From Gammaproteobacteria bacterium (lineage in GTDB: Bacteria > Pseudomonadota > Gammaproteobacteria > SURF-13): a stretch of 10,820 bases of DNA. Below, piece by piece: positions 1-10,820 of the stretch (positions are counted from its first letter, which is position 1; each line of letters begins with the position of its first letter). The translations under genes were made by a program, and so were the position numbers. The stretch spans positions 1 to 10,820 of the forward strand of contig JAMDBH010000049.1 of NCBI GenBank assembly GCA_023487615.1. The letters run 5' to 3'. The notes under the pieces are model-generated. The model had not been told where the DNA came from. It saw only the letters and a program-made list of their open reading frames with translations, and ran no database searches.

Positions 1-75
1 CAGGAGGTCCACCTGCTCATCATCCATTGCCTATGCGACCTTATTGATTATCAGTTGATTGGAAAGGAGACCTAA
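1..75 (+). CDS. diaA: 3' end of SIS-domain phosphoheptose isomerase / DiaA-like protein (partial)
   Basis: Frame 1 is open from the first base to a TAA at 73-75 and encodes 24 C-terminal residues starting QEVHLLIIHCLCDLID. This resembles the last helix of the GmhA/DiaA family of SIS-domain proteins; the CLCDLID stretch is closer to DiaA (DnaA-binding initiation factor) than to E. coli GmhA (sedoheptulose-7-phosphate isomerase). The stop lies 4 bp before the dolP start, and the dolP ribosome binding site lies inside this gene's last codons, so the two are very probably co-transcribed. The diaA-dolP pairing is well known in gammaproteobacteria. Because only the tail is visible, the choice between DiaA and GmhA is tentative; membership of the family is fairly safe. 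Confidence 0.75.
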   Translation, partial: QEVHLLIIHCLCDLIDYQLIGKET

Positions 76-79
76 ACCC

Positions 80-658
80 ATGAACTCTAAATTTTCTTTA
101 CTGGCAGCAGTAGCGTTGTCAGCGGCCTTATTGCAGGGTTGTGCGGCAGTAGCGGTCGGCGGCGCCGCCACTGGCGTGGCGGTCGCGCATGACCGGCGCA
201 CCGCGGGCACCATCGTGGATGACGAAAGCATCGAAGTGAAGGCTGCCGGGGCGCTCAATGCGGACAAAGAGATTCGCGACCAGACCCATCTCAATGTCAC
301 CAGCTACAACAATGTCGTGCTGATGACCGGCGAGACGCCTACCCAGCAACTGGGCCAGCGCGCCTATCAAATCGTGAGCGGGCTCGACAAGGTCAAGAAG
401 GTGCATAACGAGACCGTCGTCGCGGCGCCCAGTTCGTTCGGCTCGCGCAGCAATGACGCCCTGCTGACCAGCAAGGTCAAGGCACGCATGATCGCCACCA
501 AGGGCTTTGATTCCACGCTGGTGAAGGTCGTGTCGGAGCGCGGAATTGTTTACCTGATGGGTCTGGTATACCGTCACGAGGGTGACCTGGCGACGGCTAT
601 CACACGCCAGACCGATGGCGTACAACGCGTCGTCAAGCTGTTTGAATATCTGGATTAA
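80..658 (+). CDS. dolP: DolP (YraP)-like dual BON-domain outer-membrane lipoprotein
   Basis: A 192-residue lipoprotein, almost the length of E. coli DolP (191). Residues 1-20 form a signal peptide ending in the lipobox LLQGC, with C21 as the lipidated cysteine; Ala at +2 fits sorting to the outer membrane. Two BON domains follow, roughly residues 46-115 and 124-192; the second carries the GxVYLMGLV core. DolP binds anionic phospholipid and supports outer-membrane integrity and envelope protease control in E. coli. The start at 80 is chosen over an in-frame TTG at 59 because AAGGAGA at 64-70 is well spaced for it and the signal peptide begins there (MNSKFSLLAA). It follows the diaA-like gene by 4 bp and faces sspB tail to tail. 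Family assignment is secure. Confidence 0.92.
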   Translation: MNSKFSLLAAVALSAALLQGCAAVAVGGAATGVAVAHDRRTAGTIVDDESIEVKAAGALNADKEIRDQTHLNVTSYNNVVLMTGETPTQQLGQRAYQIVSGLDKVKKVHNETVVAAPSSFGSRSNDALLTSKVKARMIATKGFDSTLVKVVSERGIVYLMGLVYRHEGDLATAITRQTDGVQRVVKLFEYLD

Positions 659-689
659 AAGGCAGATACAAGATACAAAAATAAAGGAC

Positions 690-706
690 CTCTGAATAAC
701 TCAGAG
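690..706. repeat. Short palindrome CTCTGA/TCAGAG between dolP and sspB
   Basis: A 6-bp perfect stem (CTCTGA, loop ATAAC, TCAGAG) lies in the 64-bp gap between the converging 3' ends of dolP and sspB. No T-run follows on either side, so it is a poor intrinsic terminator. Its core is the same as that of four other palindromes in the window (1178, 6100, 8763, 8875), so it is listed as a member of that repeat family. A modest role in protecting 3' ends is possible but not shown. Confidence 0.5.
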
Positions 707-722
707 CATCCCTACTAGAGCG

Positions 723-1124
723 TTATTTGACCAGTGTGAGCTTGGGTTTTCCGGGCTTGACGGCGTTGGGTTTGGGAGGTGTGCCGCTCTCGAGTTCATT
801 AAAGACCATGCCTTGGCCATTCTCGCGGGCGTAGATCGCCAGCACGGCGGAGATCGGTATGCTGACGTGAGTGGCTGCTCCGCCGAAGCGGGCGTTGAAC
901 TCGATCAGCTCATTGCCGATTTCCAGATTATGGGCGGCGGAAAGGCTGGTGTTGAGGATGATCTTGCCGTTCTGCACGTACTTGACAGGTACATTCACCT
1001 CCGGCCCGGTCACGTTGACGAGCAGGTGAGGGGCAAGTCCGTTGTCTACGATCCAGGTGTGGATCGCGCGGATCAGGTAGGGGCGGCTGGAGGTCATCTC
1101 CATATTGATAGGAGGGCTGTTCAT
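723..1124 (-). CDS. sspB: ClpXP protease specificity-enhancing factor SspB
   Basis: SspB tethers ssrA-tagged and some other substrates to ClpX. The 133-residue product has the substrate-binding domain at about residues 12-105, with the family-typical RPYLIRAI start, the FNARFGG strand and the AVLAIYARENGQGM segment. A Pro/Lys-rich linker follows, then the C-terminal ClpX-docking tail KPKLTLVK, equivalent to RPALRVVK in E. coli. The linker is much shorter than in E. coli SspB (165 residues) and lacks its acidic stretch. The ATG at 1124 is preferred to an in-frame TTG at 1136 because GGGA lies about 7 nt before it; ATGs at 1103 and 1097 are also possible, since homology begins only near RPYL. 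It follows sspA on the same strand with about 65 bp between them. Confidence 0.93.
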   Translation of the reverse strand: MNSPPINMEMTSSRPYLIRAIHTWIVDNGLAPHLLVNVTGPEVNVPVKYVQNGKIILNTSLSAAHNLEIGNELIEFNARFGGAATHVSIPISAVLAIYARENGQGMVFNELESGTPPKPNAVKPGKPKLTLVK

Positions 1125-1177
1125 TGTCTTTCCCAATAGCTGAACACTGGGATGCTATTTTACACGACTTTAGGAAA

Positions 1178-1208
1178 CTCTGGAAAAGTCATCCATGACG
1201 TTTTTCAG
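1178..1208. repeat. Palindromic repeat overlapping the 3' end of sspA
   Basis: Starting CTCTGGAAAAGTCATCC, this sequence folds as a hairpin: CTG/CAG, a G-T pair, AAAA/TTTT, one bulged base, and GTCAT/ATGAC around a tiny loop. It aligns closely with the palindrome at 6100-6131 (AAACTCTG, then AAAA, TCATCC, TGA, TTTTTCAG), differing at about five positions and one indel. The sspA stop codon (1191-1189) and its last codons lie inside it. On the sspA transcript the hairpin falls between sspA and sspB, where it could affect mRNA stability or attenuation; there is no terminator-like U-run. Confidence 0.6.
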
Positions 1209-1842
1209 CGGGTTGTTGGACTCGCATTTCTCGCTCGGCCTCCGTGAGGCTGGCAAGGAAGCCCGCGCGGGCAAATAGCCGCGCCGAATATTTGGCGATG
1301 TGCTTCGCCTGGGGCGGCAATTCGACCCCTAGATGCGGTAAGCGCCACAGAATCGGCCCTATAACGCAGTCCACCAACGACAACTCATCGCTCATGAAGA
1401 AGGTCTTTTGCCCGAACAGCGGATCGCTGGCGGTCAGGCTGTCCCGCAGGGCCTTGCGGGCTTTGCTGAGGCGGTGATTGTCCGGATTTTCCAGTTCTTC
1501 GACGGCGCTGTACCAATCCTGTTCGATACGGTACATCATGAGCCGCGCCCGCGCTCTCGACACCGGGTCCACCGGCATCAGCGGCGGATGCGGAAAGCGC
1601 TCATCCAGATATTCCATGATAATGAGTGAATTATAAAGCACCAGATCGCGGTCTACGAGGGTAGGCAAGGTATGGTAGGGGTTTAGATCTATCACGTCTT
1701 CAGGCAGGTGTTCAGGATCTACGTGGATAATGTCCACAGCGATATTTTTTTCGGCGAGCGCAAAGCGGGTGCGGTGGCTGAAGGGGCAAACCGGGCCGGA
1801 GTAGAGAGTCATGACCGATCTTCTATTGATAATTAACGACAT
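1189..1842 (-). CDS. sspA: Stringent starvation protein A (SspA), GST-fold RNA polymerase-associated factor
   Basis: SspA binds sigma70-RNA polymerase and alters promoter use in stationary phase and acid stress; it has a glutathione-S-transferase fold without GST activity. The 217-residue product has a thioredoxin-like domain at about 9-85 and an all-helical C-terminal domain at about 90-205. The surface motif FPHP, essential in E. coli SspA, is present at exactly residues 83-86. The N-terminus MSLIINRRSVMTLYSGP lines up with the full E. coli start, which supports the ATG at 1842 over the internal ATG at 1812. CPFSH (19-23) replaces the E. coli residues after SGP. The last residues, including the stop codon, fall inside a palindromic repeat shared with other gaps here. 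sspB follows downstream. Confidence 0.95.
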   Translation of the reverse strand: MSLIINRRSVMTLYSGPVCPFSHRTRFALAEKNIAVDIIHVDPEHLPEDVIDLNPYHTLPTLVDRDLVLYNSLIIMEYLDERFPHPPLMPVDPVSRARARLMMYRIEQDWYSAVEELENPDNHRLSKARKALRDSLTASDPLFGQKTFFMSDELSLVDCVIGPILWRLPHLGVELPPQAKHIAKYSARLFARAGFLASLTEAEREMRVQQPAEKRHG

Positions 1843-1941
1843 AAGAGCTCCCTGATATGTTTTGTGAGATAACTGTTTTACGGGCTTAAGTCATTGACTC
1901 TTTTGGGATAACTGATGAATAGTTATGGTCACCCTGCCGCG

Positions 1942-1968
1942 AGTATACCTTAGATGACACGGTGTCAA
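1942..1968 (-). promoter_or_regulatory. Candidate sigma70 promoter for sspA-sspB
   Basis: Reading the - strand, TTGACA (1968-1963) is followed after 15 nt by TATACT (1947-1942), about 100 bp before the sspA ATG. Both hexamers are close to consensus; the spacing is 2 nt short, though CATTGA two bases earlier would give 17. A 13-bp dyad covers the -35 region. This is a pattern match only. Confidence 0.45.
1955..1967. promoter_or_regulatory. 13-bp dyad TGACACGGTGTCA, possible operator
   Basis: A perfect palindrome with 6-bp arms around a single G overlaps the -35 hexamer of the candidate sspA promoter and lies about 40 bp upstream of the candidate act promoter. Its position suits a repressor or dual regulator of the divergent pair. 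I do not recognise the binding protein. Confidence 0.35.
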
Positions 1969-2008
1969 TGTAGTGAGAGCCATATTTTTGATGTGGCTTG
2001 TAATAGTA

Positions 2009-2038
2009 TTGACATCACTCTTTGCGTTGATTTACGAT
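2009..2038 (+). promoter_or_regulatory. Candidate sigma70 promoter for the act operon
   Basis: TTGACA (2009-2014) is followed after 18 nt by TACGAT (2033-2038), a four-of-six match to the -10 box. It is the best + strand match I found in the gap and would leave a leader of roughly 360 nt before actA. A promoter nearer the gene cannot be excluded. Confidence 0.35.
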
Positions 2039-2402
2039 TTGAAGTTCAATAATGATCTACTCGTTTAGGGGAGCTTTGCTTTTGAGTATTGTGTAGGCTG
2101 AGTTGGGCGCCCACCCTGTCGCTCCCTGTTGTGATGAGTGTTTTAAGGATGCGTTTTTTGCAAATGCCGACGCGGTAGCCGTAGTCGTCGAGGCATATTC
2201 TGCAAACAATTCCCCGGGTGAGTCACTTAGGCCGACATAATCGTTAAAGGTTAGGGCGTGCTATTGCCGCGCGCCTCGGGTTTTACGTGTTACAAGGCAC
2301 CGTCGGCCTGTTTCCCATGTGTTCGCTTGGTCCTAAGGGGGCATGAGAGGGGCAGCGGGCGTTTTGAAATGTGCGTGTTTTCCAGACAGCGGAACTAACA
2401 AG

Positions 2403-3002
2403 ATGAATGACTTACTTCGGCGTTGGTTATTGACCTTCCTGTGTGTCGGCGGCTTCCTGATTGGGACGAGCGCTGCTGCGTCGGAAGGCCCCACTATTAA
2501 ATATCCTGTTCCCCCGCCGGGCGACTACAACGGTGACGTGGTCGAACAGCCCATCGAGTTCCCGCACGACATCCATACCAAGATCAACAAGATCAACTGT
2601 CTCTACTGTCACAGCTACGGCCGCCGCAGCAAGGTGGCCGGCATCCCACCCACCAGCAAGTGCATGGGCTGCCACCGTGTGATAGCCACCGACAAGCCGC
2701 GCATTCAGAAGCTCACCGAGTATTGGGAAAAGCGCCAATCCATTCCATGGAAGAAGGTGCACGACGTGCCCGATTTCGTTCATTTCACCCACGAAAAGCA
2801 CCTCAAGAAATTCATCTTCGATAACGAGGAACTGGTACAGGAGCTTTCCGTGGACACCGTGGCGCCGGTGTGTGCCGCTTGTCATGGCGATCTCAGGGAG
2901 ATGACGGTGGCGCGAAAGGTAAAGCCGATGACCATGGGTTGGTGTGTCGCGTGCCATGAAGCCAACGGCGGACCCGGCGACTGTTGGAAGTGTCATAAAT
3001 AA
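2403..3002 (+). CDS. actA: ActA-like pentaheme cytochrome c subunit of alternative complex III
   Basis: A 199-residue exported multiheme cytochrome. Residues 1-26 are a signal peptide or anchor (RR, then a hydrophobic run, then TSAAA before SEGP). Five CxxCH heme sites follow: CLYCH (66-70), CMGCH (87-91), CAACH (157-161), CVACH (181-185) and CWKCH (194-198). Extra histidines at 55, 58, 120, 127, 130 and 133 can serve as distal ligands. Five hemes in a cytochrome c7-like arrangement as the first gene before a molybdopterin-like/ferredoxin/NrfD set is the hallmark of ActA, which passes electrons from the ActB iron-sulfur chain toward the periplasmic acceptor. The ATG at 2403 is preferred over an in-frame ATG at 2343 because the signal peptide begins there and GGAA lies upstream. 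It is the first gene of the operon; actB1 follows after 37 bp. Confidence 0.88.
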   Translation: MNDLLRRWLLTFLCVGGFLIGTSAAASEGPTIKYPVPPPGDYNGDVVEQPIEFPHDIHTKINKINCLYCHSYGRRSKVAGIPPTSKCMGCHRVIATDKPRIQKLTEYWEKRQSIPWKKVHDVPDFVHFTHEKHLKKFIFDNEELVQELSVDTVAPVCAACHGDLREMTVARKVKPMTMGWCVACHEANGGPGDCWKCHK

Positions 3003-3039
3003 TCAGCCTTAATTTGAAAACACGAACGGATGAACAGCT

Positions 3040-5238
3040 ATGAGTGGTAGCGAAATAAACCGCAGGGGCTTTCTCAAATTGATGGGCTGGAGTGCGGCGG
3101 GCGCGGGTCTTGCCGGTTGCGACCTCCCTTCCACCGTGACCCTGGAGCAAGGTAAGGAAACCGTGATGTCCTACCTTTCTCCCGAGGAATACGTCATACC
3201 GGGCATCGGCGTATGGTATGCCTCTACCTGCATGCAGTGTGCGGCCTTCTGCGGCATTCACGGCCGGGTGCGCGAGGGACATGCCCTGAAACTCGAGGGC
3301 AATCCCGATTCGCCGCTGAACCGCGGAAAGCTGTGCCAGATGGGTCAGGCCGGTATACAGGGCCACTACAACCCGGACCGCATTACTCAGCCGCTGCTGC
3401 GTAAGGACGGCAAACTCACTCCGATAGGCTGGGATGAAGCCTGGAACCTGATCGGTCAGAAAATCTCCAATGCGCCCGGCGAACGCTTCGCCTGGGTCAC
3501 CGGCACGGTCAGTGGGCACCAAGCGGTGTTGCTTGCCGCCCATATCGAGGCCGTGGGCTCTAAAAATCATTTTGCAGTCGAGGTGATCGGCCCGCACGTG
3601 GGCCGCGCCGTGAACCGGGACATGTTGGGCGAGGCGATGCCGCGCCTGGTTCTCGACAAGGCCAAGCTCATCCTCTCGCTGGGCGCCGATTTTCTGGGCA
3701 CCTGGGTGTCGCCCACCCATTTCGCCACCGAGTACGCCAAATTCCGTTCCGGCTCGCGCGGCATGCTCGTACAGGTCGAACCGAAGATGACCCTGACCGG
3801 CGGCAACGCCGATCTGTGGGTGCCCATCCGTCCGGGTACCGAAGGCGTGCTGGCGCTGGCCATCGCCAACGTATTGATGAAGGGCGGCGCCAAAGTCCCC
3901 GAGTCCGCTATTGCCGCGGTATCGGCCTATGAACCCGCCAAGGCGGCCGACATCACCGGCGTCTCCGCCGAGCGCATCGAAAAAATTGCCGCGCTGCTCA
4001 AAGAGCACAGCCCAAGCCTGGTGCTGGCCGGCGCGCCGGTGGAGGGCCATGCCCACGGCTATCAGGCCGCCGCCGCCGTACAGTTGTTGAATATCATGCT
4101 GGGCAATGTCGGCCAAACCATCGTTTCGGCGGGCGATTTCCCCTTCCCGCAACTGGCGGCGAAGAGTGGCAGCACGCGCGATCTCATCGCTTTTGCCGAC
4201 GCCGCCAAGAATCAAAAGCTGGACGTTGCGTTTTTCTACGGCGCCAATCCCGTTTACAGCGCCCCGCAATTCCTGGCGCTCCCCGAGGCCCTGCAAAAGA
4301 TTCCGTTCAAGGTCGCCTTCGCCCAGTTCCCCGACGAAACCGCCGAGGCGGCCGATCTGGTCATCCCGCTGGCGTCGTATCTGGAAGATTGGGGCACGCA
4401 CGTAGCTGCCTACCAGCCGGAACAGGCCGGCATCACGGTGCAGCAACCGCTGATGGAGCGCATGTACAAAGACACCATCGGCTTCGGCGATGCGCTGCTC
4501 AGACTCCTGAAGCTGGGCAAGCCCGAACAGTATGCCGCCTGGGAAGACTACTACGCGTACCTGCGCAACGCCGTGGCAAGCCTGCCTGCCGAATACAAGG
4601 GCGACGCCGCGAGCGACAACGTATTCTGGAATCAGACCCTGCAAAAGGGCGTGCTGAAGGTGGCCGCCGCTGCGCAAGAGCTGAAGCCGCAGGTACCCGA
4701 GATCAAACTGCCCGACGCGCAGCCCAATGAAGGCTATCCGCTCTACTTGGTGCCCTCCGCCCAATTGGGACTGTGGGACGGCCGGCATGCCAACCTGCCC
4801 TGGCTGCAAGAGGCGCCCGATCAGATCAGCAAGGTGGTGTGGGATACCTGGGCGGAGATTCATCCCGCCACGGCGGCGAAGCTCGGCATCAAGGAAGACG
4901 ACGTCATAGAGATCGCCTCGGAGCAGGGTTCGATCAAGGTCAAGGCCTATCTGTTCAAGGGCGTGCACCCGGACGTGGTCGCTGTGCCGATGGGTCAGGG
5001 CCACGAGGCCTACGGCCGCTACGCCAAGAACCGGGGCGCGAATGTATTGAAAATCCTCAATCCGGTCGCCGACGCCAAGACCGGCGAGCTTGCGCTGTAC
5101 GGCACGCGCGTCAAGCTGGCCAACACGGGAAAAAATGAACCTCTGGTCATCGAGGGCCGCGGCAACAACAGTCAACGCGGCCGCAAGCTGGTGGTGACCA
5201 TTTCCGCAGATCAGTTCCGCAAGACGGAAGGAGCTTAA
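3040..5238 (+). CDS. actB1: ActB1: molybdopterin-oxidoreductase-like subunit of alternative complex III (separate gene)
   Basis: This 732-residue protein corresponds to the N-terminal half (B1) of ActB. It opens with a Tat signal (NRRGFLKLMG, residues 7-16) ending in a lipobox LAGC with C27, and Asp at +2. Next comes the region that binds the proximal Fe-S cluster in DMSO-reductase-family enzymes, with C64, C67, C71 and C99 in the complete C-x2-C-x3-C-x27-C pattern. The Rossmann-like domains and a C-terminal beta-barrel domain (about 600-720) follow. Where catalytic relatives have a Cys, Ser or Sec ligand for molybdenum, the sequence reads AVEVIGPHVGRAV, with no such residue. Loss of molybdenum is typical of ActB1, where the domain is structural. 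Known ActB1 domains are described as cofactor-free, so the intact cysteine set is unusual. Polysulfide or thiosulfate reductase is less likely given the full act gene set. No strong Shine-Dalgarno is visible before 3040. Confidence 0.87.
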   Translation: MSGSEINRRGFLKLMGWSAAGAGLAGCDLPSTVTLEQGKETVMSYLSPEEYVIPGIGVWYASTCMQCAAFCGIHGRVREGHALKLEGNPDSPLNRGKLCQMGQAGIQGHYNPDRITQPLLRKDGKLTPIGWDEAWNLIGQKISNAPGERFAWVTGTVSGHQAVLLAAHIEAVGSKNHFAVEVIGPHVGRAVNRDMLGEAMPRLVLDKAKLILSLGADFLGTWVSPTHFATEYAKFRSGSRGMLVQVEPKMTLTGGNADLWVPIRPGTEGVLALAIANVLMKGGAKVPESAIAAVSAYEPAKAADITGVSAERIEKIAALLKEHSPSLVLAGAPVEGHAHGYQAAAAVQLLNIMLGNVGQTIVSAGDFPFPQLAAKSGSTRDLIAFADAAKNQKLDVAFFYGANPVYSAPQFLALPEALQKIPFKVAFAQFPDETAEAADLVIPLASYLEDWGTHVAAYQPEQAGITVQQPLMERMYKDTIGFGDALLRLLKLGKPEQYAAWEDYYAYLRNAVASLPAEYKGDAASDNVFWNQTLQKGVLKVAAAAQELKPQVPEIKLPDAQPNEGYPLYLVPSAQLGLWDGRHANLPWLQEAPDQISKVVWDTWAEIHPATAAKLGIKEDDVIEIASEQGSIKVKAYLFKGVHPDVVAVPMGQGHEAYGRYAKNRGANVLKILNPVADAKTGELALYGTRVKLANTGKNEPLVIEGRGNNSQRGRKLVVTISADQFRKTEGA

Positions 5239-5241
5239 ACC

Positions 5242-6096
5242 ATGTCGTCGCTACAGAATCTGATAGACAACTGGTCGCAATACCGCAAGGGCATCGAGGA
5301 GGGCGGCTTCCACCATTATGAACATCGCTGGGGCATGGCAATAGACCTCAACGCCTGCATCGGCTGCAATGCCTGTTCGACCGCCTGTTATGCGGAAAAC
5401 AACCTGGCCGTGGTCGGGCCGGAGCGTTTCGCGCAGGGCCACTTCATGCACTGGATGCGCGTCGAGCGTTACTGGGATCAGCCCGACCAGGAGTTCCCGG
5501 AGCAGGGCGCGAGCTTCCTACCCATGATGTGTCAGCAGTGCGGCGCCGCGCCGTGCGAGCCGGTATGTCCCGTGGTGGCCACCTATCACACGCCGGATGG
5601 GCTCAACGCGCAGGTCTACAACCGCTGCATTGGTTCGCGTTATTGCAACAACAACTGCCCGTACCGGGTGCGTTATTTCAATTTCTGGTCGTATTACGAA
5701 AGCTCCTGGCCGGAGCCGCTCAACATGCAACTCAACCCCGACCTCACAGTGCGCGACAAGGGCGTGATGGAAAAGTGCACCTTCTGCGTGCAGCGCATCC
5801 GCACCGCCAAGGACAAGGCCAAGATGGAGAACCGCAAGATCAAGGACGGCGAGTTCACCACCGCCTGCGCGCAGGCCTGTCCCACCAATGCCATCCACTT
5901 CGGCGATCTGATGGACCCGGAGAGTCAGGTGACGAAGCTGTGGGCCACGCATCAGGTCTCGCGGGTGGACGAGCAGGGCCGTCCGCGCCACGAGCAGGAC
6001 AAACAGAATCCAGAACTGCGCGGTTACCGCGTGCTGGAAGAACTCAACACGGACCCGTCGGTGATGTATCTCGAACGGGTACGCGAGACTGTATGA
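5242..6096 (+). CDS. actB2: ActB2: iron-sulfur subunit of alternative complex III (separate gene)
   Basis: A 284-residue DmsB/NrfC-type ferredoxin subunit with four cluster motifs: C39-C42-C45-C49, C97-C100-C105-C109, C129-S132-C135-C139 and C179-C182-C209-C213. In the third motif (CIGSRYCNNNCP) the second cysteine is Ser132. This is the place where ActB proteins lack a cysteine and hold a [3Fe-4S] cluster, so three [4Fe-4S] and one [3Fe-4S] are expected. The chain carries electrons from the ActC quinol site to the ActA hemes on the periplasmic face. The protein has no signal of its own and would have to cross the membrane bound to the Tat-signal-bearing ActB1. It starts 3 bp after the actB1 stop, with AAGGAG at 5228-5233, so the pair is translationally coupled. 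In well-studied complexes both parts are one polypeptide. Confidence 0.9.
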   Translation: MSSLQNLIDNWSQYRKGIEEGGFHHYEHRWGMAIDLNACIGCNACSTACYAENNLAVVGPERFAQGHFMHWMRVERYWDQPDQEFPEQGASFLPMMCQQCGAAPCEPVCPVVATYHTPDGLNAQVYNRCIGSRYCNNNCPYRVRYFNFWSYYESSWPEPLNMQLNPDLTVRDKGVMEKCTFCVQRIRTAKDKAKMENRKIKDGEFTTACAQACPTNAIHFGDLMDPESQVTKLWATHQVSRVDEQGRPRHEQDKQNPELRGYRVLEELNTDPSVMYLERVRETV

Positions 6097-6099
6097 AAA

Positions 6100-6213
6100 C
6101 TCTGAAAAACTCATCCTTGATTTTTTCAGAGCCGGCCGCTCCTGCGCATCCCTGCGCGCGCGGCATTGGGGCTCCCTGCCCGGCAAAAAGTAAAAAATGT
6201 GATTTTTGCTTTT
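6100..6213. repeat. Mosaic palindromic element between actB2 and actC
   Basis: Most of the 153-bp gap is made of inverted repeats. First is CTCTGAAAAA / TTTTTCAGAG (6100-6131, 10-bp perfect outer stem, with TCA/TGA inside). Next is a GC-rich block with GCCG (6131-6134) / CGGC (6181-6184), GCCGC (6135-6139) / GCGGC (6160-6164) and GGG/CCC pairs. Last is AAAAG-T-AAAAAT (6186-6198) / ATTTTT-G-CTTTT (6202-6213). The last part, followed by CGTC, recurs at 8843-8874 in the actE-actF gap, and the first part recurs at 1178-1208. The composition resembles an intergenic palindromic mosaic (REP/BIME-like or MITE-like). It may set relative expression of the genes on either side. Confidence 0.65.
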
Positions 6214-6249
6214 CGTCAGCGTAACGCCATCGTGAAGGTAGAGGCTGGT

Positions 6250-7671
6250 ATGAAAGATATAGCGATACACTCCCAAGAAAAAGATATCCGCGAAGATCTG
6301 CCGTGGAAACAGATCAATACTGATATCCTGCGCTCCCTGGACAACCCGCGCCGGGGTTATTGGTATTCCATCATCGTCTGCCTGGTGCTGCTCGCCATCG
6401 GCTTCACCGCCGAGGTGATTCAATACCAACATGGCATGGGCATGTCCAAGAACCACCCGCACATGTGGAATCTGTACATCGCCACCTTCATCTTCTGGAT
6501 TGGCATGAGCCACTCCGGCACGCTGCTCTCGGCGATTCTGCACATCGTACACGCCGACTGGCGCAAACCGATCTATCGTTTCGCCGAGGCCATGACCACC
6601 TTCTCGCTGATGACGGCCTTGCTGTTTCCGGTGATTCACTTGGGAAGGCTGTGGAATTTCTACTGGGTTGTCCCTTATATTCCATCGCGCGGCACCTGGC
6701 CGAATTTCCGTTCCCCGCTGTCGTGGGATGGCTTTGCGATCATGACCTATCTCACTTCTTCGGCGCTGTTTTTGTACATTGGCATGTTGCCGGACTTGGC
6801 GATCGCGCGCGACAACACCACCGGCTGGCGTAAACGGCTTTACAGCACGCTGTCGCTAGGCTGGTGCGGCAACGACCGGCAGTGGCGCGTGTTCCGCAAG
6901 GCCTATATGCTGATGGCGATCTTTTTGATCCCGCTGGCCGTCTCGGTGCACTCCATCGTGTCGTCCGACTTCGCCATGTCCATCAATCCCGGCTGGCACG
7001 TGACCACCTTCCCGCCTTATTTCGTGGCTGGCGCGCTGTACTCCGGATGCGCGGCGATCATCACCCTGTTCATCCTGCTGCGCTACTACTTCCGTTGGGA
7101 GGAGTACATGACGCTGCCTATTCTGGAGAAGATCTGCAAGCTCACTTTTGCCATCGCCATGATGTGGACGTATTTGAATCTGGTCGAGTTCGCCTCGGTG
7201 TGGTACGGCCATGACGTATACGGAAAGGAGGTGTTGTGGGGCAAGATGACGGGGGCTTATGCGCCGGCCTTCTGGAGCATGATGTTCTTTGGCTCGGTGT
7301 TGCCGTTCACGCTCGCCTTCCGCTCGCTGCGCCGCCACATCCCCACCATGATGGCGGTGTCCATCCTGCTTAACGTCGGCATGTGGCTGGAACGCTGGAT
7401 GATCGTCTCGCCCACGTTGTCCCAGTCGTTCTATCCCTGGTCGTGGGACGTGATGTGGCCGACCGTCACCTCCTGGGCTATCGTGCTGGGCAGCTTCGGC
7501 TGGTTCGGCCTGCTGTTCCTGGTGTTCGTGAAGATCTTCCCGTCGGTCTCCATGTACGAGGTCAAGGAAATGGTTTACCACCGCAAGCTCGCCACCGAAA
7601 AGGCGGCAGCGCGCGTCGGCGGCGCCGCACCCGCCTACGGCGCACACATGAAAAAGGAGGACGCGGTATGA
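6250..7671 (+). CDS. actC: ActC: NrfD/PsrC-family quinol-binding membrane subunit of alternative complex III
   Basis: A 473-residue polytopic protein with about ten membrane segments (roughly residues 37-57, 74-100, 111-131, 161-181, 219-239, 254-279, 293-317, 338-358, 365-385 and 404-428), the count expected for ActC and more than the eight of PsrC. The N-terminal tail IREDLPWKQINTDILRSL and the GMSHSGTLLSAILHIV helix with nearby WRKPIYRFAEAMT are typical of the family. ActC oxidises membrane quinol at its periplasmic side, delivers electrons to the ActB2 [3Fe-4S] cluster, and is a candidate proton-translocating unit. The ATG at 6250 is chosen because GAGG lies just before it. An upstream in-frame start at 6166 would translate part of a palindromic repeat and add basic residues foreign to the family. 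The stop overlaps the actD start (ATGA). Confidence 0.9.
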   Translation: MKDIAIHSQEKDIREDLPWKQINTDILRSLDNPRRGYWYSIIVCLVLLAIGFTAEVIQYQHGMGMSKNHPHMWNLYIATFIFWIGMSHSGTLLSAILHIVHADWRKPIYRFAEAMTTFSLMTALLFPVIHLGRLWNFYWVVPYIPSRGTWPNFRSPLSWDGFAIMTYLTSSALFLYIGMLPDLAIARDNTTGWRKRLYSTLSLGWCGNDRQWRVFRKAYMLMAIFLIPLAVSVHSIVSSDFAMSINPGWHVTTFPPYFVAGALYSGCAAIITLFILLRYYFRWEEYMTLPILEKICKLTFAIAMMWTYLNLVEFASVWYGHDVYGKEVLWGKMTGAYAPAFWSMMFFGSVLPFTLAFRSLRRHIPTMMAVSILLNVGMWLERWMIVSPTLSQSFYPWSWDVMWPTVTSWAIVLGSFGWFGLLFLVFVKIFPSVSMYEVKEMVYHRKLATEKAAARVGGAAPAYGAHMKKEDAV

Positions 7672-8198
7672 AAAAGAGCCACCGCCTACTCGGCCTGTTC
7701 AGCAATTTTGACGAGGCCACCAAGGCCATTTATGACATTCGCGCCGACAAGGTGAGCGGCGTTTCCGTTAATGACGTGACCCTGATCTCGCCTATCGAGC
7801 ACCCGGAGGTCGAAGAGGCGCTCGGCGACCGCGGCGTGCATGTGCAGTTCTTCACGCTGTTCGGAGGACTGTTCGGCCTGATCGGCAGTTGGCTGTGGAT
7901 CTCCGCGGCGCAGGCCACCTTTTTGGTTCAGCCGCAGGGCGGCAAGCCGGTGGTGACCCTGGTCACCAACTTCGTATTGAATTACGAGATGATGATCCTG
8001 GGCGGCGTGCTGTTCACCCTGATAGGTCTCCTGATCGGCGCGCGATTGCCGTCGCGCCCCGGTTCGCTTTATAGCGAAAAAATCAGTCTGGATCAGATCG
8101 GCATCCTGCTGGAGGTTAATGAACCCAACCTGGCGCCGCTGAAGTCGCTGTTCCACCAACACAATGTAGTCGAAATACGCGAAGAGATCATTCGATGA
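7668..8198 (+). CDS. actD: ActD: DUF3341 membrane subunit of alternative complex III
   Basis: A 176-residue protein with two membrane segments (about residues 61-83 and 96-124) between a soluble N-terminal domain that begins RLLGLFSNFDEATKAIYDIR and a soluble C-terminal domain. That is the DUF3341 layout known as ActD, a small subunit beside ActC that carries no cofactor. Its ATG overlaps the actC stop by the ATGA arrangement, with AAAGGAGG at 7653-7660 as a strong ribosome binding site, so translation is coupled to actC. The actE start overlaps its own stop the same way. A longer in-frame reading from 7383 lies inside actC and is not real. Its strict position between actC and actE supports the assignment. 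Confidence 0.9.
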   Translation: MKKSHRLLGLFSNFDEATKAIYDIRADKVSGVSVNDVTLISPIEHPEVEEALGDRGVHVQFFTLFGGLFGLIGSWLWISAAQATFLVQPQGGKPVVTLVTNFVLNYEMMILGGVLFTLIGLLIGARLPSRPGSLYSEKISLDQIGILLEVNEPNLAPLKSLFHQHNVVEIREEIIR

Positions 8199-8752
8199 AA
8201 ACCCTGCGCCTATTCCTTGTCGTGCCGTTGCTCGCCCCGGTGTTTGTCTATGCCTGGCCGTGGTCGCAGGACATGATGAATCAACCCAGCATCAAGCCAC
8301 AGGAACCTGAACGTAACGGGCAATTGGCCCCCTTCCCTCATCGCTCGGTTCCCGTGCAAGGTATCCTGACCCAAACGGCCAGCCGTGAAGAGACTAATGA
8401 TCTGACCAATCCGTTTCCCCCGGATGAGGCCTCGATAAAAAGGGGACGTGTGCTGTTTCGCATCGTCTGCGCCGCCTGTCACGGGCAGACCGGCAAGGCT
8501 GATTCCCCTGTGACGGACAAGATTGGCGCGATTGACCTCACCTCGGATTATGCACAGAAGGATCTCACCGAAGGCTGGGTCTACGGCACCATCACCCACG
8601 GCGGTGCGGTGATGCCGCCCTATGGCGTACCGGCGGGCGGAGTGGGCTCCAATGATCTGTCACCGGAAGAGCGCTGGCATGTCGTCAACTATGTGCGCCA
8701 CGCCTTGACCAAAGAGGCGGCCGCTGCCGCCCCACAGGCAGCGACTCAATAA
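8195..8752 (+). CDS. actE: ActE: monoheme cytochrome c subunit of alternative complex III
   Basis: A 185-residue exported cytochrome. A short hydrophobic N-terminus (residues 3-20) is followed by WPWSQDMMNQPSIKPQE, the QPxxxPxE type of motif usual near the start of ActE. A single heme site CAACH (92-96) follows, with Met140 in GGAVMPPYG as the likely sixth ligand, then an LSPEERWHVVNYVR helix that closes a class I cytochrome c fold. With the five hemes of ActA this gives six c-type hemes, the number known for characterised ACIII. It is a likely exit point to soluble cytochrome c or HiPIP. The N-terminus has no cysteine, so it is not a lipoprotein in this organism. The start overlaps the actD stop (ATGA). 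The C-terminal tail is Ala-rich. A 177-bp palindrome-rich gap follows. Confidence 0.9.
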   Translation: MKTLRLFLVVPLLAPVFVYAWPWSQDMMNQPSIKPQEPERNGQLAPFPHRSVPVQGILTQTASREETNDLTNPFPPDEASIKRGRVLFRIVCAACHGQTGKADSPVTDKIGAIDLTSDYAQKDLTEGWVYGTITHGGAVMPPYGVPAGGVGSNDLSPEERWHVVNYVRHALTKEAAAAAPQAATQ

Positions 8753-8760
8753 CAGGTTAG

Positions 8761-8904
8761 GGAATCTCTGATTTGTTCAGAGATTCCTGCGGCACATGGA
8801 TGTGCCGCCATTTTTCAAACACTCAAGTGTTTGAAAAATGGAGAAAAGAAAAAATCGCATTTTTTGCTTTTCGTCTCTGAAAAATTCAGGGACGAATTTT
8901 TCAG
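8761..8904. repeat. Mosaic palindromic element between actE and actF
   Basis: Five hairpins stand side by side. (1) GGAATCTCTGA / TCAGAGATTCC (8761-8771/8777-8787), 11-bp perfect. (2) GCGGCACAT / ATGTGCCGC (8789-8797/8800-8808), 9-bp. (3) CCATTTTTCAAACACT / AGTGTTTGAAAAATGG (8808-8823/8826-8841), 16-bp perfect. (4) GAAAAG-AAAAAAT / ATTTTTT-G-CTTTTC (8843-8855/8859-8872). (5) CTGAAAAATTC / GAATTTTTCAG (8877-8887/8894-8904), 11-bp perfect. Parts 4 and 5 match parts of the 6100-6213 element in sequence or layout. The hairpins lie between two genes of one complex, so transcription presumably passes through. They may stabilise the upstream mRNA or cause partial termination before actF. Confidence 0.7.
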
Positions 8905-8929
8905 AATTTCTTAGAGGAGTAATGATTTA

Positions 8930-10015
8930 ATGCAAAACTTCGGCAGTTGGTCGGTACTGACCACGAATTTTTTAATCATCCTCTACATGGCGCTGGGGAC
9001 GATCACCCTGTCGGCGCTGCTGCACATGGCCAACGCCAAGTGGCGTTTCCAGATACGCAGTCTGGTGGCAAGCCTCGCGGTGTTGTTCCCGGTGGCCTTC
9101 GTCCTGCTGCTCATCCTTCTGTTTAACGGCGAGCATACTTTCCAGTGGCTGGCCCATGCCAACGAGGGCGAGCATCACCTGCCGGGGGGGTGGCGCGACA
9201 ACACCGTCCTGTGGCACAACTACACCTTCCTGGTGGCGCGTGAGATCATCGGATTTATCGTAGTCGTTGGGTTGTACAGTCTGTTTCTTAGATACCAGAA
9301 ACTGAGCGAAACTAATCCTTCGCCCGCAATCGCGCGCACCTTCCGTAATATTACCCTGTTGATCCCGTTTGCCTATGTTCCTTACGCGACCATGGTGGCC
9401 TGGGATTTTGAGATGACCCAGATGCCCGGCTGGCACAGCGCGAGTTACGGCGCCTACCACTTCGTCAGCAATTTCCACGCCTCGCTGGGGTTCCTGGCGG
9501 TATTGTTGTTTGTGCTGAGTCGCTCCGGGAAACTCGTCAAGCCTCTGCCCGAGTTCGTGTTCAATTATCTCGCGCAGTTTATGTTTGCCTTCACCATTCT
9601 GTGGACCTATCTGTTCTTTACGCAATTCCTCATCATGTGGTACGGGCGTTTCCCCGAAGAGACCATCCGTTTCTTCAACATGATGTACGGCGGGCCGATG
9701 CAGCCCAACATGGAGATCGGCGGCTACTCGCCGCTGTGGTGGACGTTCTTTACGCTCAAGTTCATCGTTCCATTCACGACCTTCTTGTTCACCGCCAACC
9801 GGCACAATCCGGTGGTTATCATCACCGTCGCGTCAGGCATCCTAGTCGGTACTTGGATCGAGCGCTATACGTGGATATCCGGTTCCGTGGACCCGAAGCT
9901 CTATCACTTCCCCATGACCTCGATCTTCGACATCGTGGTGACGGTGGTATTAGCAGTTGTGGTCTTTTTTGCGATACGCTGGTCACTGAACCGCGCCGGA
10001 CTGGTGAGGCTGTAA
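8930..10015 (+). CDS. actF: ActF: second NrfD-like membrane subunit of alternative complex III (short form)
   Basis: A 361-residue polytopic protein with about nine membrane segments (roughly 10-32, 46-66, 99-120, 140-158, 176-196, 210-235, 270-288, 294-312 and 331-350). Family signatures include the helix MALGTITLSALLHMANAKWR, the WTYLFFTQFLIMWYG motif (225-239) and the WIERYTWI helix end (309-316). ActF is a structural relative of ActC that pairs with it in the membrane; its function is less certain. Characterised ActF proteins have ten segments. The sequence here seems to begin at what is normally the second, so an N-terminal helix is missing. The start is well fixed: AGAGGAG (8913-8919) precedes the ATG and an in-frame TAG lies at 8912-8914. 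It is the last gene of the act operon, with an algW-like gene downstream. Confidence 0.85.
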   Translation: MQNFGSWSVLTTNFLIILYMALGTITLSALLHMANAKWRFQIRSLVASLAVLFPVAFVLLLILLFNGEHTFQWLAHANEGEHHLPGGWRDNTVLWHNYTFLVAREIIGFIVVVGLYSLFLRYQKLSETNPSPAIARTFRNITLLIPFAYVPYATMVAWDFEMTQMPGWHSASYGAYHFVSNFHASLGFLAVLLFVLSRSGKLVKPLPEFVFNYLAQFMFAFTILWTYLFFTQFLIMWYGRFPEETIRFFNMMYGGPMQPNMEIGGYSPLWWTFFTLKFIVPFTTFLFTANRHNPVVIITVASGILVGTWIERYTWISGSVDPKLYHFPMTSIFDIVVTVVLAVVVFFAIRWSLNRAGLVRL

Positions 10016-10028
10016 TCTTCCCAATAGG

Positions 10029-10054
10029 TTGATAGAAAACTCGTTTTGAATCAA
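10029..10054. promoter_or_regulatory. 26-bp dyad upstream of the algW-like gene
   Basis: TTGAT-AG-AAAAC-TC-GTTTT-GA-ATCAA is symmetric over 26 bp apart from the AG/GA pairs and the centre. It lies 14 bp after the actF stop and its right half covers the -35 box of the candidate promoter for the next gene. It could be an operator or a weak 3'-end hairpin for the act transcript; no T-run follows to make it a good terminator. Confidence 0.35.
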
Positions 10055-10073
10055 TCTGTGAGCGTGCTACCAT
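10046..10073 (+). promoter_or_regulatory. Candidate extended -10 promoter for the algW-like gene
   Basis: TTGAAT (10046-10051), a 16-nt spacer, and TACCAT (10068-10073) preceded by TG at 10065-10066 form an extended -10 promoter. Initiation would fall near 10080, about 27 nt before the ATG. It suggests the protease gene has its own promoter and is not strictly part of the act operon. Confidence 0.45.
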
Positions 10074-10102
10074 CCCCACTGTCATTATCCGGTAGTGGGG
10101 AT
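10072..10102 (+). promoter_or_regulatory. Inverted repeat covering the ribosome binding site of the algW-like gene
   Basis: ATCCCCACT (10072-10080) and AGTGGGGAT (10094-10102) form a perfect 9-bp stem with a 13-nt loop. The right arm contains the only plausible Shine-Dalgarno sequence (GGGGA, 10097-10101) before the ATG at 10107. In any RNA that includes both arms, the ribosome binding site would be masked. If transcription starts near 10080, the left arm would be mostly absent and the symmetry would act in DNA instead. Confidence 0.45.
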
Positions 10103-10106
10103 ATCT

Positions 10107-10820
10107 ATGCGCATCCGTAATCTTCTGTCGTTTCTGATCAAGTCCATCATCACCGGACTCGCCGCCGCGTTTATCATCGTGGTCTTTTACCCCGGACTGC
10201 TCAAGAAGGGCGACACGGTCGTGGAGGTTAAGGAGAGTACACGCCCGGCGGCCGCAAGCTCGTCTTCTGACCTATCCGCATTCGCGCCCAGTTCCTACGC
10301 AAAGGGAGTGGGTCAGGCTGCGCCCTCGGTAGTCAATATCTTTACAACCAAGGTTATCACCCAGCGCCCGCATCCGTTTCTGGACGACCCCTTCATGCAG
10401 CGCTTTTTCGGCGGCAACCCTCAGTTCGCCCCGCGGCAACGGCTCGAAAGTAGCCTCGGATCGGGAGTCATTATCAGTGACAAAGGCTACATCCTCACAA
10501 ATAATCATGTGATTGACGGCGCCGACGAAATCCAGATCGCCCTCAGCGACGGACGCAGCGCCCAAGCGCAAGTAGTGGGTTCCGATCCCGAGACCGATGT
10601 GGCGGTGTTAAAGATAGAAATGGATAAGCTGCCCAGCATCGTGATCGGCCAGTCGGATGCCCTGCAAGTAGGCGACGTGGTGCTCGCCATCGGCAATCCC
10701 TTCGGCGTGGGACAGACCGTCACTCACGGCATCGTCAGTGCTACGGGGCGTAACCATCTCGGCATCAACACCTTTGAAAACTTCATCCAGACCGACGCTG
10801 CGATTAATCCCGGCAACAGG
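10107..10820 (+). CDS. algW: AlgW/DegS-like membrane-anchored trypsin-like serine protease (5' part, cut by window end)
   Basis: The first 238 codons are present and open to the window edge. Residues 11-28 form a single uncleaved-type membrane anchor (FLIKSIITGLAAAFIIVVFY), as in DegS/AlgW and unlike the cleaved signal of DegP. The chymotrypsin-fold domain begins near residue 65 (YAKGVGQAAPSVVNI) and has His134 in TNNHVI and Asp164 in GSDPETDVAVLKI. SATGRN, FIQTDAAINPGN and the short PFLDDPFMQRFFG loop match AlgW closely. AlgW/DegS proteases cut anti-sigma factors when unfolded outer-membrane proteins appear, releasing an envelope-stress sigma factor. The last codon in the window is where the catalytic serine (GNSGG) should be, but it reads AGG. 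The PDZ domain would lie beyond the edge. Annotation as DegQ is the main alternative. Confidence 0.9.
   Translation, partial: MRIRNLLSFLIKSIITGLAAAFIIVVFYPGLLKKGDTVVEVKESTRPAAASSSSDLSAFAPSSYAKGVGQAAPSVVNIFTTKVITQRPHPFLDDPFMQRFFGGNPQFAPRQRLESSLGSGVIISDKGYILTNNHVIDGADEIQIALSDGRSAQAQVVGSDPETDVAVLKIEMDKLPSIVIGQSDALQVGDVVLAIGNPFGVGQTVTHGIVSATGRNHLGINTFENFIQTDAAINPGNR

Follow-up and report, generated by a model that had tools for sequence, protein, structure and literature searches.

The DNA analysed here (the window) is a stretch of 10,820 nt from a gammaproteobacterium of the order SURF-13 (assembly GCA_023487615.1, contig JAMDBH010000049.1, positions 1 to 10,820), and it carries a complete operon for alternative complex III (ACIII), actA-B1-B2-C-D-E-F, between sspA and a degQ/algW-type protease gene. 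Complex III is central to respiration, and ACIII and the cytochrome bc1 complex encoded by petABC probably do the same job, i.e. quinol oxidation with transfer of the electrons to cytochrome c, with unrelated proteins. With a probability that we put at about three in four, the interval between degQ and sspA, which in most sampled members of the class is occupied by petABC with or without nif3, has come to hold act in this order, the original bc1 has been lost, and ACIII serves as the sole quinol:cytochrome c oxidoreductase. An exchange of complex III for an unrelated complex is usually seen only as presence or absence of genes; here it can be followed at one chromosomal place, at which loci with petABC only, with both systems and with act only are found, together with one deletion scar.

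In an even sample of 149 genomes of the class, SspA was detected in 129 (E 1e-35) and cytochrome b in 121 (E 1e-30), and petB was located 1.3-1.7 kb upstream of sspA, always on the same strand, in 91 of the 129 genomes with SspA. A reading of the window made from its sequence alone (the sequence-only reading) had given petABC beside sspA as the class pattern, and was right to do so. Ten petABC-sspA loci that were fetched, including L057, share the arrangement degQ< nif3> petA> petB> petC> sspA> sspB> ... dolP< diaA< yraN< lpoA< (arrowheads give gene direction), with degQ in view in eight of them and nif3 in seven. The locus of the window's order runs (hisF> hisI>) tatC> degQ<, then act in inverted orientation, then sspA> sspB> dolP< diaA< yraN< lpoA<. 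That is, the same flank genes stand on both sides in the collinear frame (his) tatC> degQ< X sspA> sspB> dolP< diaA< yraN< lpoA<, where X is (nif3-)petABC or act, with nif3 missing and act inverted in the order, and it is this collinearity that suggests an exchange in place. The flank genes were confirmed with Pfam on one example of each. Homologues of the protease are 58-93% identical across the loci of the order, and the same gene borders petABC in the class loci; dolP is likewise collinear with the petABC-bearing loci.

The gene set and order that had been claimed for the window were borne out by open reading frames (ORFs) and family scans: dolP (plus strand), sspB and sspA (both minus), the seven act genes (plus, opposite to sspA) and beyond them the protease gene (plus), which runs off the window end. 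As to the diaA/gmhA flank claimed at the same time, diaA does adjoin dolP in the nearest genome, G001, and the window itself could hold at most the last codons of diaA. The order was sampled with six draft genomes of 1.3-2.4 Mb from three genera of one family. G001 (SspA 99% identical to that of the window) carries the same block, its act proteins being 94-99.8% identical to those of the window. The whole block lies on one contig in five of the six genomes and on two in the sixth (G006, with a break near the 5′ end of actA), so that a misassembly of a single genome does not account for the arrangement.

No cytochrome c1 (PF02167) was found in any of the six genomes by a search that was positive in 21 of 24 other genomes of the class, and no cytochrome b (PF00033) by one that was positive in 8 of 14 well-known control genomes; a cytochrome bc1, defined by cytochrome b and c1 genes, was accordingly recognized in none of the six. 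G002, listed at 1.4 Mb with completeness 100, was read over 1,389,952 bases: PetA, PetB and PetC, whether native or of the second type described below, had no match at E<=1e-3, nif3 was not found at E 1e-3, and the four matches of a loose Rieske pattern all lacked the motif that the class PetA proteins have. As far as the drafts show, the original genes are gone from these genomes. The sequence-only reading had left the choice between a replacement and an insertion that pushed petABC away; the former is favoured, with bc1 genes found in none of the six genomes and flanks collinear with those of the petABC loci. It had also named two observations that would speak otherwise, an intact petABC elsewhere in the genome and close relatives never having petABC beside sspA; petABC was not found elsewhere in the order, and petABC beside sspA is the norm of the class.

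Possible stages of exchange in related loci

An ActC-like gene (E 1e-60) was present in 14 of the 149 class genomes, and petB stood beside sspA in 3 of these 14 ACIII hosts versus 88 of the 115 ACIII-free genomes with sspA (Fisher p 8e-5, with no correction for kinship). The ActC of one host, G121, is of a distant classical type, encoded away from sspA together with a fused ActB (L242, 994-aa frame), so that the class contains two types of ACIII. Named genomes were also scanned for ActC relatives, and the best 80 of the 218 found were analysed, with landmarks placed by tblastn of reference proteins. The arrangement act> petABC> sspA> (hereafter both-type) was seen in 10 of the 80 loci and act> sspA> without pet in 12, including a Gallionella (L169) and Candidatus Nitrotoga (L172); in five of these 12, act occupies the native place instead of petABC (degQ< nif3> act> sspA>). 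In eight further loci, act is followed by petABC (or by the first of the three genes) and sspA is out of view; in another 32, degQ and/or nif3 precedes act, and the visible sequence includes neither pet nor sspA. Six of the 32 were inspected, and in these rpe, gph or trp genes come next, mostly after one or two other ORFs (rpe was Pfam-confirmed once, the rest were judged by eye). The remainder comprises three loci of the window's order, one of them cut at actA, and 15 that are truncated at contig ends or in which no landmark is in view. Overall, degQ and/or nif3 lies upstream of act in 37 of the 80 loci.

The last step of an exchange appears to be caught in L122, one of the 12 act> sspA> loci. 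This locus and the both-type locus L125 are 87-90% identical in DNA, and the RpoB proteins of their genomes are nearly identical. L122 has no petABC, and the 3′ end of petC is kept between actF and sspA (~150 bases including the bases after petC), with 77-79% identity over 111-154 bases to three relatives (E 2e-15 to 4e-22); its genome, of which the completeness is not stated, gave no PF00033 match. Judged by this scar, L122 represents a recent loss of petABC made visible. In addition, the both-type locus L134 is sister to the pet-less L156, L167, L168 and L171 (RpoB 100/100; SspA+B 98/94, there with L165 too). From such relatives, we infer that act would have stood beside petABC before petABC was deleted.

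A cytochrome b encoded elsewhere was found in 9 of the 12 act> sspA> genomes, with no match in the other three, and PF00033 was matched in all 10 both-type genomes and in 11 of 14 other ACIII genomes. The second-copy PetB proteins that were fetched from the act> sspA> and the other group form one clade (100/99), with a median identity of 51% to native PetB, whereas comparisons within and between the native set and the both-type set give medians of 68-81%. Since they are thus separate and distant, these second bc1 copies are not relocated native petABC. The comparison covers 19 of 20 second-copy loci (L175, a 19-aa ORF, was dropped) and all nine act> sspA> genomes; two further cytochrome b copies of G060 and the second copy of G073 were left out, and L057, a duplicate in the native identity set, was removed from the PetB tree (44 rows). 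In that tree, rooted at the midpoint, the second clade (L173-L192) lies on the same side as the alphaproteobacterial rows.

Several observations on these relatives stand on their own. Five of the eight loci with act followed by pet are alphaproteobacterial by title (L146, L153, L154, L157 and L158, the last at a contig end). In the first four, titled Rhodospirillales or Rhodospirillaceae, act lies upstream of petABC, so the act-pet neighbourhood recurs outside the class, and their PetB proteins form a separate clade with 49% median identity to native class PetB. The closest named ActC records (best 80 of 218 relatives) are metagenome-assembled genomes (MAGs) titled Gammaproteobacteria, Proteobacteria or, for a 3-kb contig, Verrucomicrobia bacterium. 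A second actC-like gene (near 9090) follows the complete act operon of L118.

The history of act was followed in a tree of ActB1+B2+C with 72 rows, left from 88 ActC sequences after removal of 13 without full B1, B2 and C and of three duplicate-genome rows. With a midpoint root, the window's order is one clade (100) with Gallionella and Nitrotoga as nearest neighbours (90), and a single 35-row set (98) takes in every sspA-linked act operon, along with 7 rows of other or unknown linkage. Rooting on the classical ACIII of G121 was rejected as unreliable, that row being single and very long (length 5.13). In a tree of SspA+B (53 rows, duplicate genomes removed), the order stands apart from the other act hosts, weakly (81/76), and a single clade of all hosts is not rejected (p 0.073). 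RpoB, which was matched in 27 of 33 genomes and used for 26, some partial (the short pieces of G078 were excluded), does reject such a clade (p 0.012; 0.037 without Nitrotoga), the groups having been named after the trees were seen. A grouping of the order with four petABC-only genomes is likewise rejected by RpoB (p 0.019), and one with G040 gives p 0.10. The order with the Gallionellaceae hosts is not rejected by SspA+B (p 0.15, L169 and L172) or RpoB (p 0.28, Nitrotoga). Because RpoB rejects in both directions, the host tree gives no sister group for the order, and with the act and RpoB trees in disagreement and the root uncertain, act may have reached the order by transfer or by descent. 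A donor outside the class, suggested from the sequence as something to check with trees, is not supported by ActC identity, which is higher inside the class (at best 76% to the order in the class outside it, 64% outside the class in a phylum sample, and 72% in MAGs with alphaproteobacterial titles among the best 80 of 218 relatives); the uncertain rooting of the act tree applies here as well.

The act operon and its predicted role

The operon (positions 2343-10015, plus strand) encodes all subunits of ACIII: a pentaheme ActA, a monoheme ActE, two NrfD-like subunits (ActC and ActF), ActD, and ActB in two parts, B1 and B2. Its gene content marks it as a complete split-ActB ACIII, with predicted quinol:cytochrome c (or HiPIP) oxidoreductase activity. 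ActF, a distant match to ActC, shares 96% identity with its counterpart in G001 and 68-71% with those of the remaining five genomes of the order. Among relatives of sufficient length, ActA has five CXXCH motifs in 70 of 70 and ActE one in 85 of 85; CX2CX3CX27C is exact in 72 of 75 ActB1 proteins, with slightly different spacing in the other three. In the stretch between the divergent sspA and actA genes, two sigma-70-like matches lie on the plus strand (2009-2038 and 1894-1923) versus 0.9 expected.

Table 1. Features of the window, with the evidence for each
Feature	Position	Strand	Evidence and remarks
dolP (BON-domain lipoprotein)	59..658, likely start 80	+	PF04972 96.5 bits; PRK11023 174 bits, under cut-off 184; outer left flank
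sspB (ClpXP specificity-enhancing factor)	723..1136	-	PF04386 115 bits; NF008769 164 bits, over cut-off
sspA (stringent starvation protein A)	1189..1842	-	PRK09481 292.5 bits, cut-off 314; left border of the complex III place
sspA-actA intergenic stretch, 500 bp	1843..2342	.	genes divergent; no pet/nif3 remnant above shuffled sequence
actA (pentaheme cytochrome c)	2343..3002, likely start 2403	+	5 CXXCH
actB1 (molybdopterin-oxidoreductase-like subunit)	3040..5238	+	PF00384 96 bits; Tat/lipoprotein-type N-terminus; CX2CX3CX27C at residue 64
actB2 (iron-sulfur subunit)	5242..6096	+	Fer4 families; QrcC-like about 231 bits, under cut-off; 15 Cys
actC (NrfD-like quinol-site subunit)	6250..7671	+	PF03916 90 bits; matches ActC of four solved ACIII
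actD	7668..8198	+	PF11821 ActD 85 bits, cut-off 25.7
actE (monoheme cytochrome c)	8195..8752	+	PF13442 40.6 bits; single CXXCH at residue 92
actF (second NrfD-like subunit)	8930..10015	+	no Pfam family over threshold; conserved in 6/6 order members
degQ/algW-type periplasmic protease	10095..10820, 3′ end beyond window	+	PF13365 96 bits; right border of the place

The CcoN subunit of a cbb3 oxidase is encoded in all six genomes of the order (PF00115 match, 472-476-aa frames), with FixO and FixP_N beside it in G001. In G002, NuoF and a FixO are encoded along with one diheme and two small monoheme cytochromes c, and few multiheme cytochromes are present. Quinol would be oxidized at ActC; the electrons would cross the ActB2/B1 iron-sulfur clusters, reach the ActA and ActE hemes, and leave ACIII via small cytochromes c for the cbb3 oxidase. 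The whole path would run from complex I and other dehydrogenases through quinone, ACIII and cytochrome c to cbb3; this path and its forward direction are likely, given the known biochemistry of ACIII, and the activity itself is predicted. G002 also encodes a cytochrome P460 (L296:10384-10941; PF16694, 111 bits). Two short frames near the cbb3 genes of G001 (L236:5851-6378 and L235:6200-6721, 175 and 173 aa) match only the last third of COX1, and each of the six genomes has two matches of this kind.

Alternative explanations

Several points weigh against a loss of petABC in place. The order is represented by six draft genomes. Its intergenic stretches were searched for remnants of pet or nif3, and no match exceeded shuffled sequence: the best petC match of the window (E 0.1) is on the strand opposite to sspA, and the best match over 13 stretches, a PetA-like stretch of 32 aa with stops in G002 (E 7e-4) that mostly overlaps the end of actF, has a score (25.8 bits) that 16 of 60 shuffled sets attained (mean 25.1). 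Only 4 of the 14 ACIII hosts in the class sample have act <=9 kb from sspA, two of them from the window's order, and 10 have it elsewhere. None of the 10 both-type loci has degQ or nif3 in view upstream of act (five have <5 kb there), so that nowhere are act and petABC seen together between the two native flanks, and the inverted act without nif3 in the order is unlike the 22 other sspA-linked act loci. Furthermore, in G185, whose SspA is nearest to that of the order among the sampled outsiders, nif3 is still beside sspA and a native-type petABC (PetB 66%) lies on another contig (L240, L241), so the removal of petABC may have come first. If petABC had been lost early for other reasons, act could simply have landed in a permissive spot. 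No petB match was obtained in 16 of the 115 ACIII-free class genomes with sspA, and the 10 hosts with act off sspA would fit as well; however, act beside petABC in 10 sspA-bearing loci and in four with alphaproteobacterial titles, and the genes degQ and/or nif3 upstream of act in so many loci, point to a preferred place, and we regard such a coincidence as unlikely. It is also possible, if doubtful, that act already stood at the place in the common ancestor of all sspA-linked act hosts and that petABC was lost later, with no separate arrival. The single 35-row set of the act tree, and SspA+B, which does not reject a host clade, agree with this, whereas the RpoB test, on groups chosen after seeing the trees, the opposite orientation of act in the order and the missing nif3 speak against it.

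A mere insertion of act between degQ and sspA, with petABC pushed elsewhere in the genome, has some parallel in G185 and in the 11 of 115 ACIII-free genomes with sspA in which petB is not linked to sspA (some perhaps owing to contig breaks). It is nevertheless very improbable for the order, as neither cytochrome b nor c1 was found in its six genomes, and the bc1 copies elsewhere in other ACIII genomes (19 of 20 usable) are of a different clade rather than moved native ones. As for function, ACIII might run mainly in reverse, from cytochrome c to quinone, and feed complex I in a lithotroph, in which case it would not be a working substitute for bc1. In Sideroxydans ES-1, act and RuBisCO transcripts are up on Fe(II), which the accessible passages of the report read as reverse transport (PMC8788666), and a similar proposal for ACIII is found in the part at hand of a paper on Tenderia (PMC5371394). 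In G002, however, a single motif search gave no match to one RuBisCO motif, which is weak evidence against such use there, few multiheme cytochromes are present, and without bc1 the flow from quinol to cytochrome c would need ACIII; we consider a mainly reverse direction improbable. The replacement of petABC by act in place, with ACIII as the remaining complex III, is the reading that we prefer.

More tentatively, the degQ-nif3-sspA interval could be a recurrent 'complex III slot', in which, or beside petABC, act arrives in separate lineages and petABC is then deleted; many hosts would hold a second, distant bc1, with quinol oxidation and reverse transport divided among the two unrelated complexes, the window's order having kept ACIII alone. 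That the exchange is laid out at one place makes the order of gain and loss, and the role of position or regulation, testable, and the small genomes of the order, with bc1 undetected, are good models for ACIII as sole complex III.

Relation to known systems

Both the split-ActB type of ACIII and respiration with ACIII only are already known. According to the accessible passages of the respective papers, ACIII occurs in 1-2% of the gamma- and betaproteobacterial species of one survey (PMC8076601), frequencies of bc1 and ACIII in Gallionellaceae have been reported (PMC10734462), and ACIII in place of complex III has been noted as a general statement (PMC12329440). A literature search over titles, abstract starts and passages, with subscription papers and preprints outside its scope, returned no published account of the locus swap. 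The iron oxidizers of the Gallionellaceae and Zetaproteobacteria (Kato et al. 2015, PMC4643136) have the same order actA-B1-B2-C-D-E-F, a split ActB and the ActB1 motif CX2CX3CX27C, as far as the available text of that paper goes; this text contains no comparison of petABC loci, and the window's order differs in that act is inverted between sspA and degQ, with bc1 undetected. Candidatus Nitrotoga is described, in the part of PMC6050957 at hand, as having ACIII without complex III, like the window's order. Its genome (L172) gave no PF00033 match and has act directly beside sspA; it differs from the window in belonging to another lineage and in having act on the sspA strand with an ORF overlap of a few bases, whereas act is opposite to sspA in the window.

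ActC of the window matches those of the solved ACIII structures 6f0k, 6btm, 6lod and 8k9e with E 2e-88 to 1e-102, and ActB1 with E 5e-34 to 1e-43; these structures are of the types of Rhodothermus, Flavobacterium and the Chloroflexota. In the solved complexes ActB forms a single chain of 933-1039 aa, whereas it is split in the window, and the Cys of the extra 4Fe-4S cluster in the window's ActB1 are absent from the two solved ActB chains that were aligned. The best NCBIfam scores of ActB1 and ActB2 were to QrcB and QrcC; an identity as the menaquinone reductase Qrc was rejected, QrcA, QrcB and QrcC all being under their cut-offs (74/180, 326/440 and about 231/400 bits), and Qrc is not known to have ActD, ActE or ActF, all three of which are present in the window. 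Finally, gene displacement in situ is a known concept, and the present case is alike in that another system for the same job stands in the same place, with the difference that here a whole multi-subunit complex of unrelated proteins would have been exchanged.

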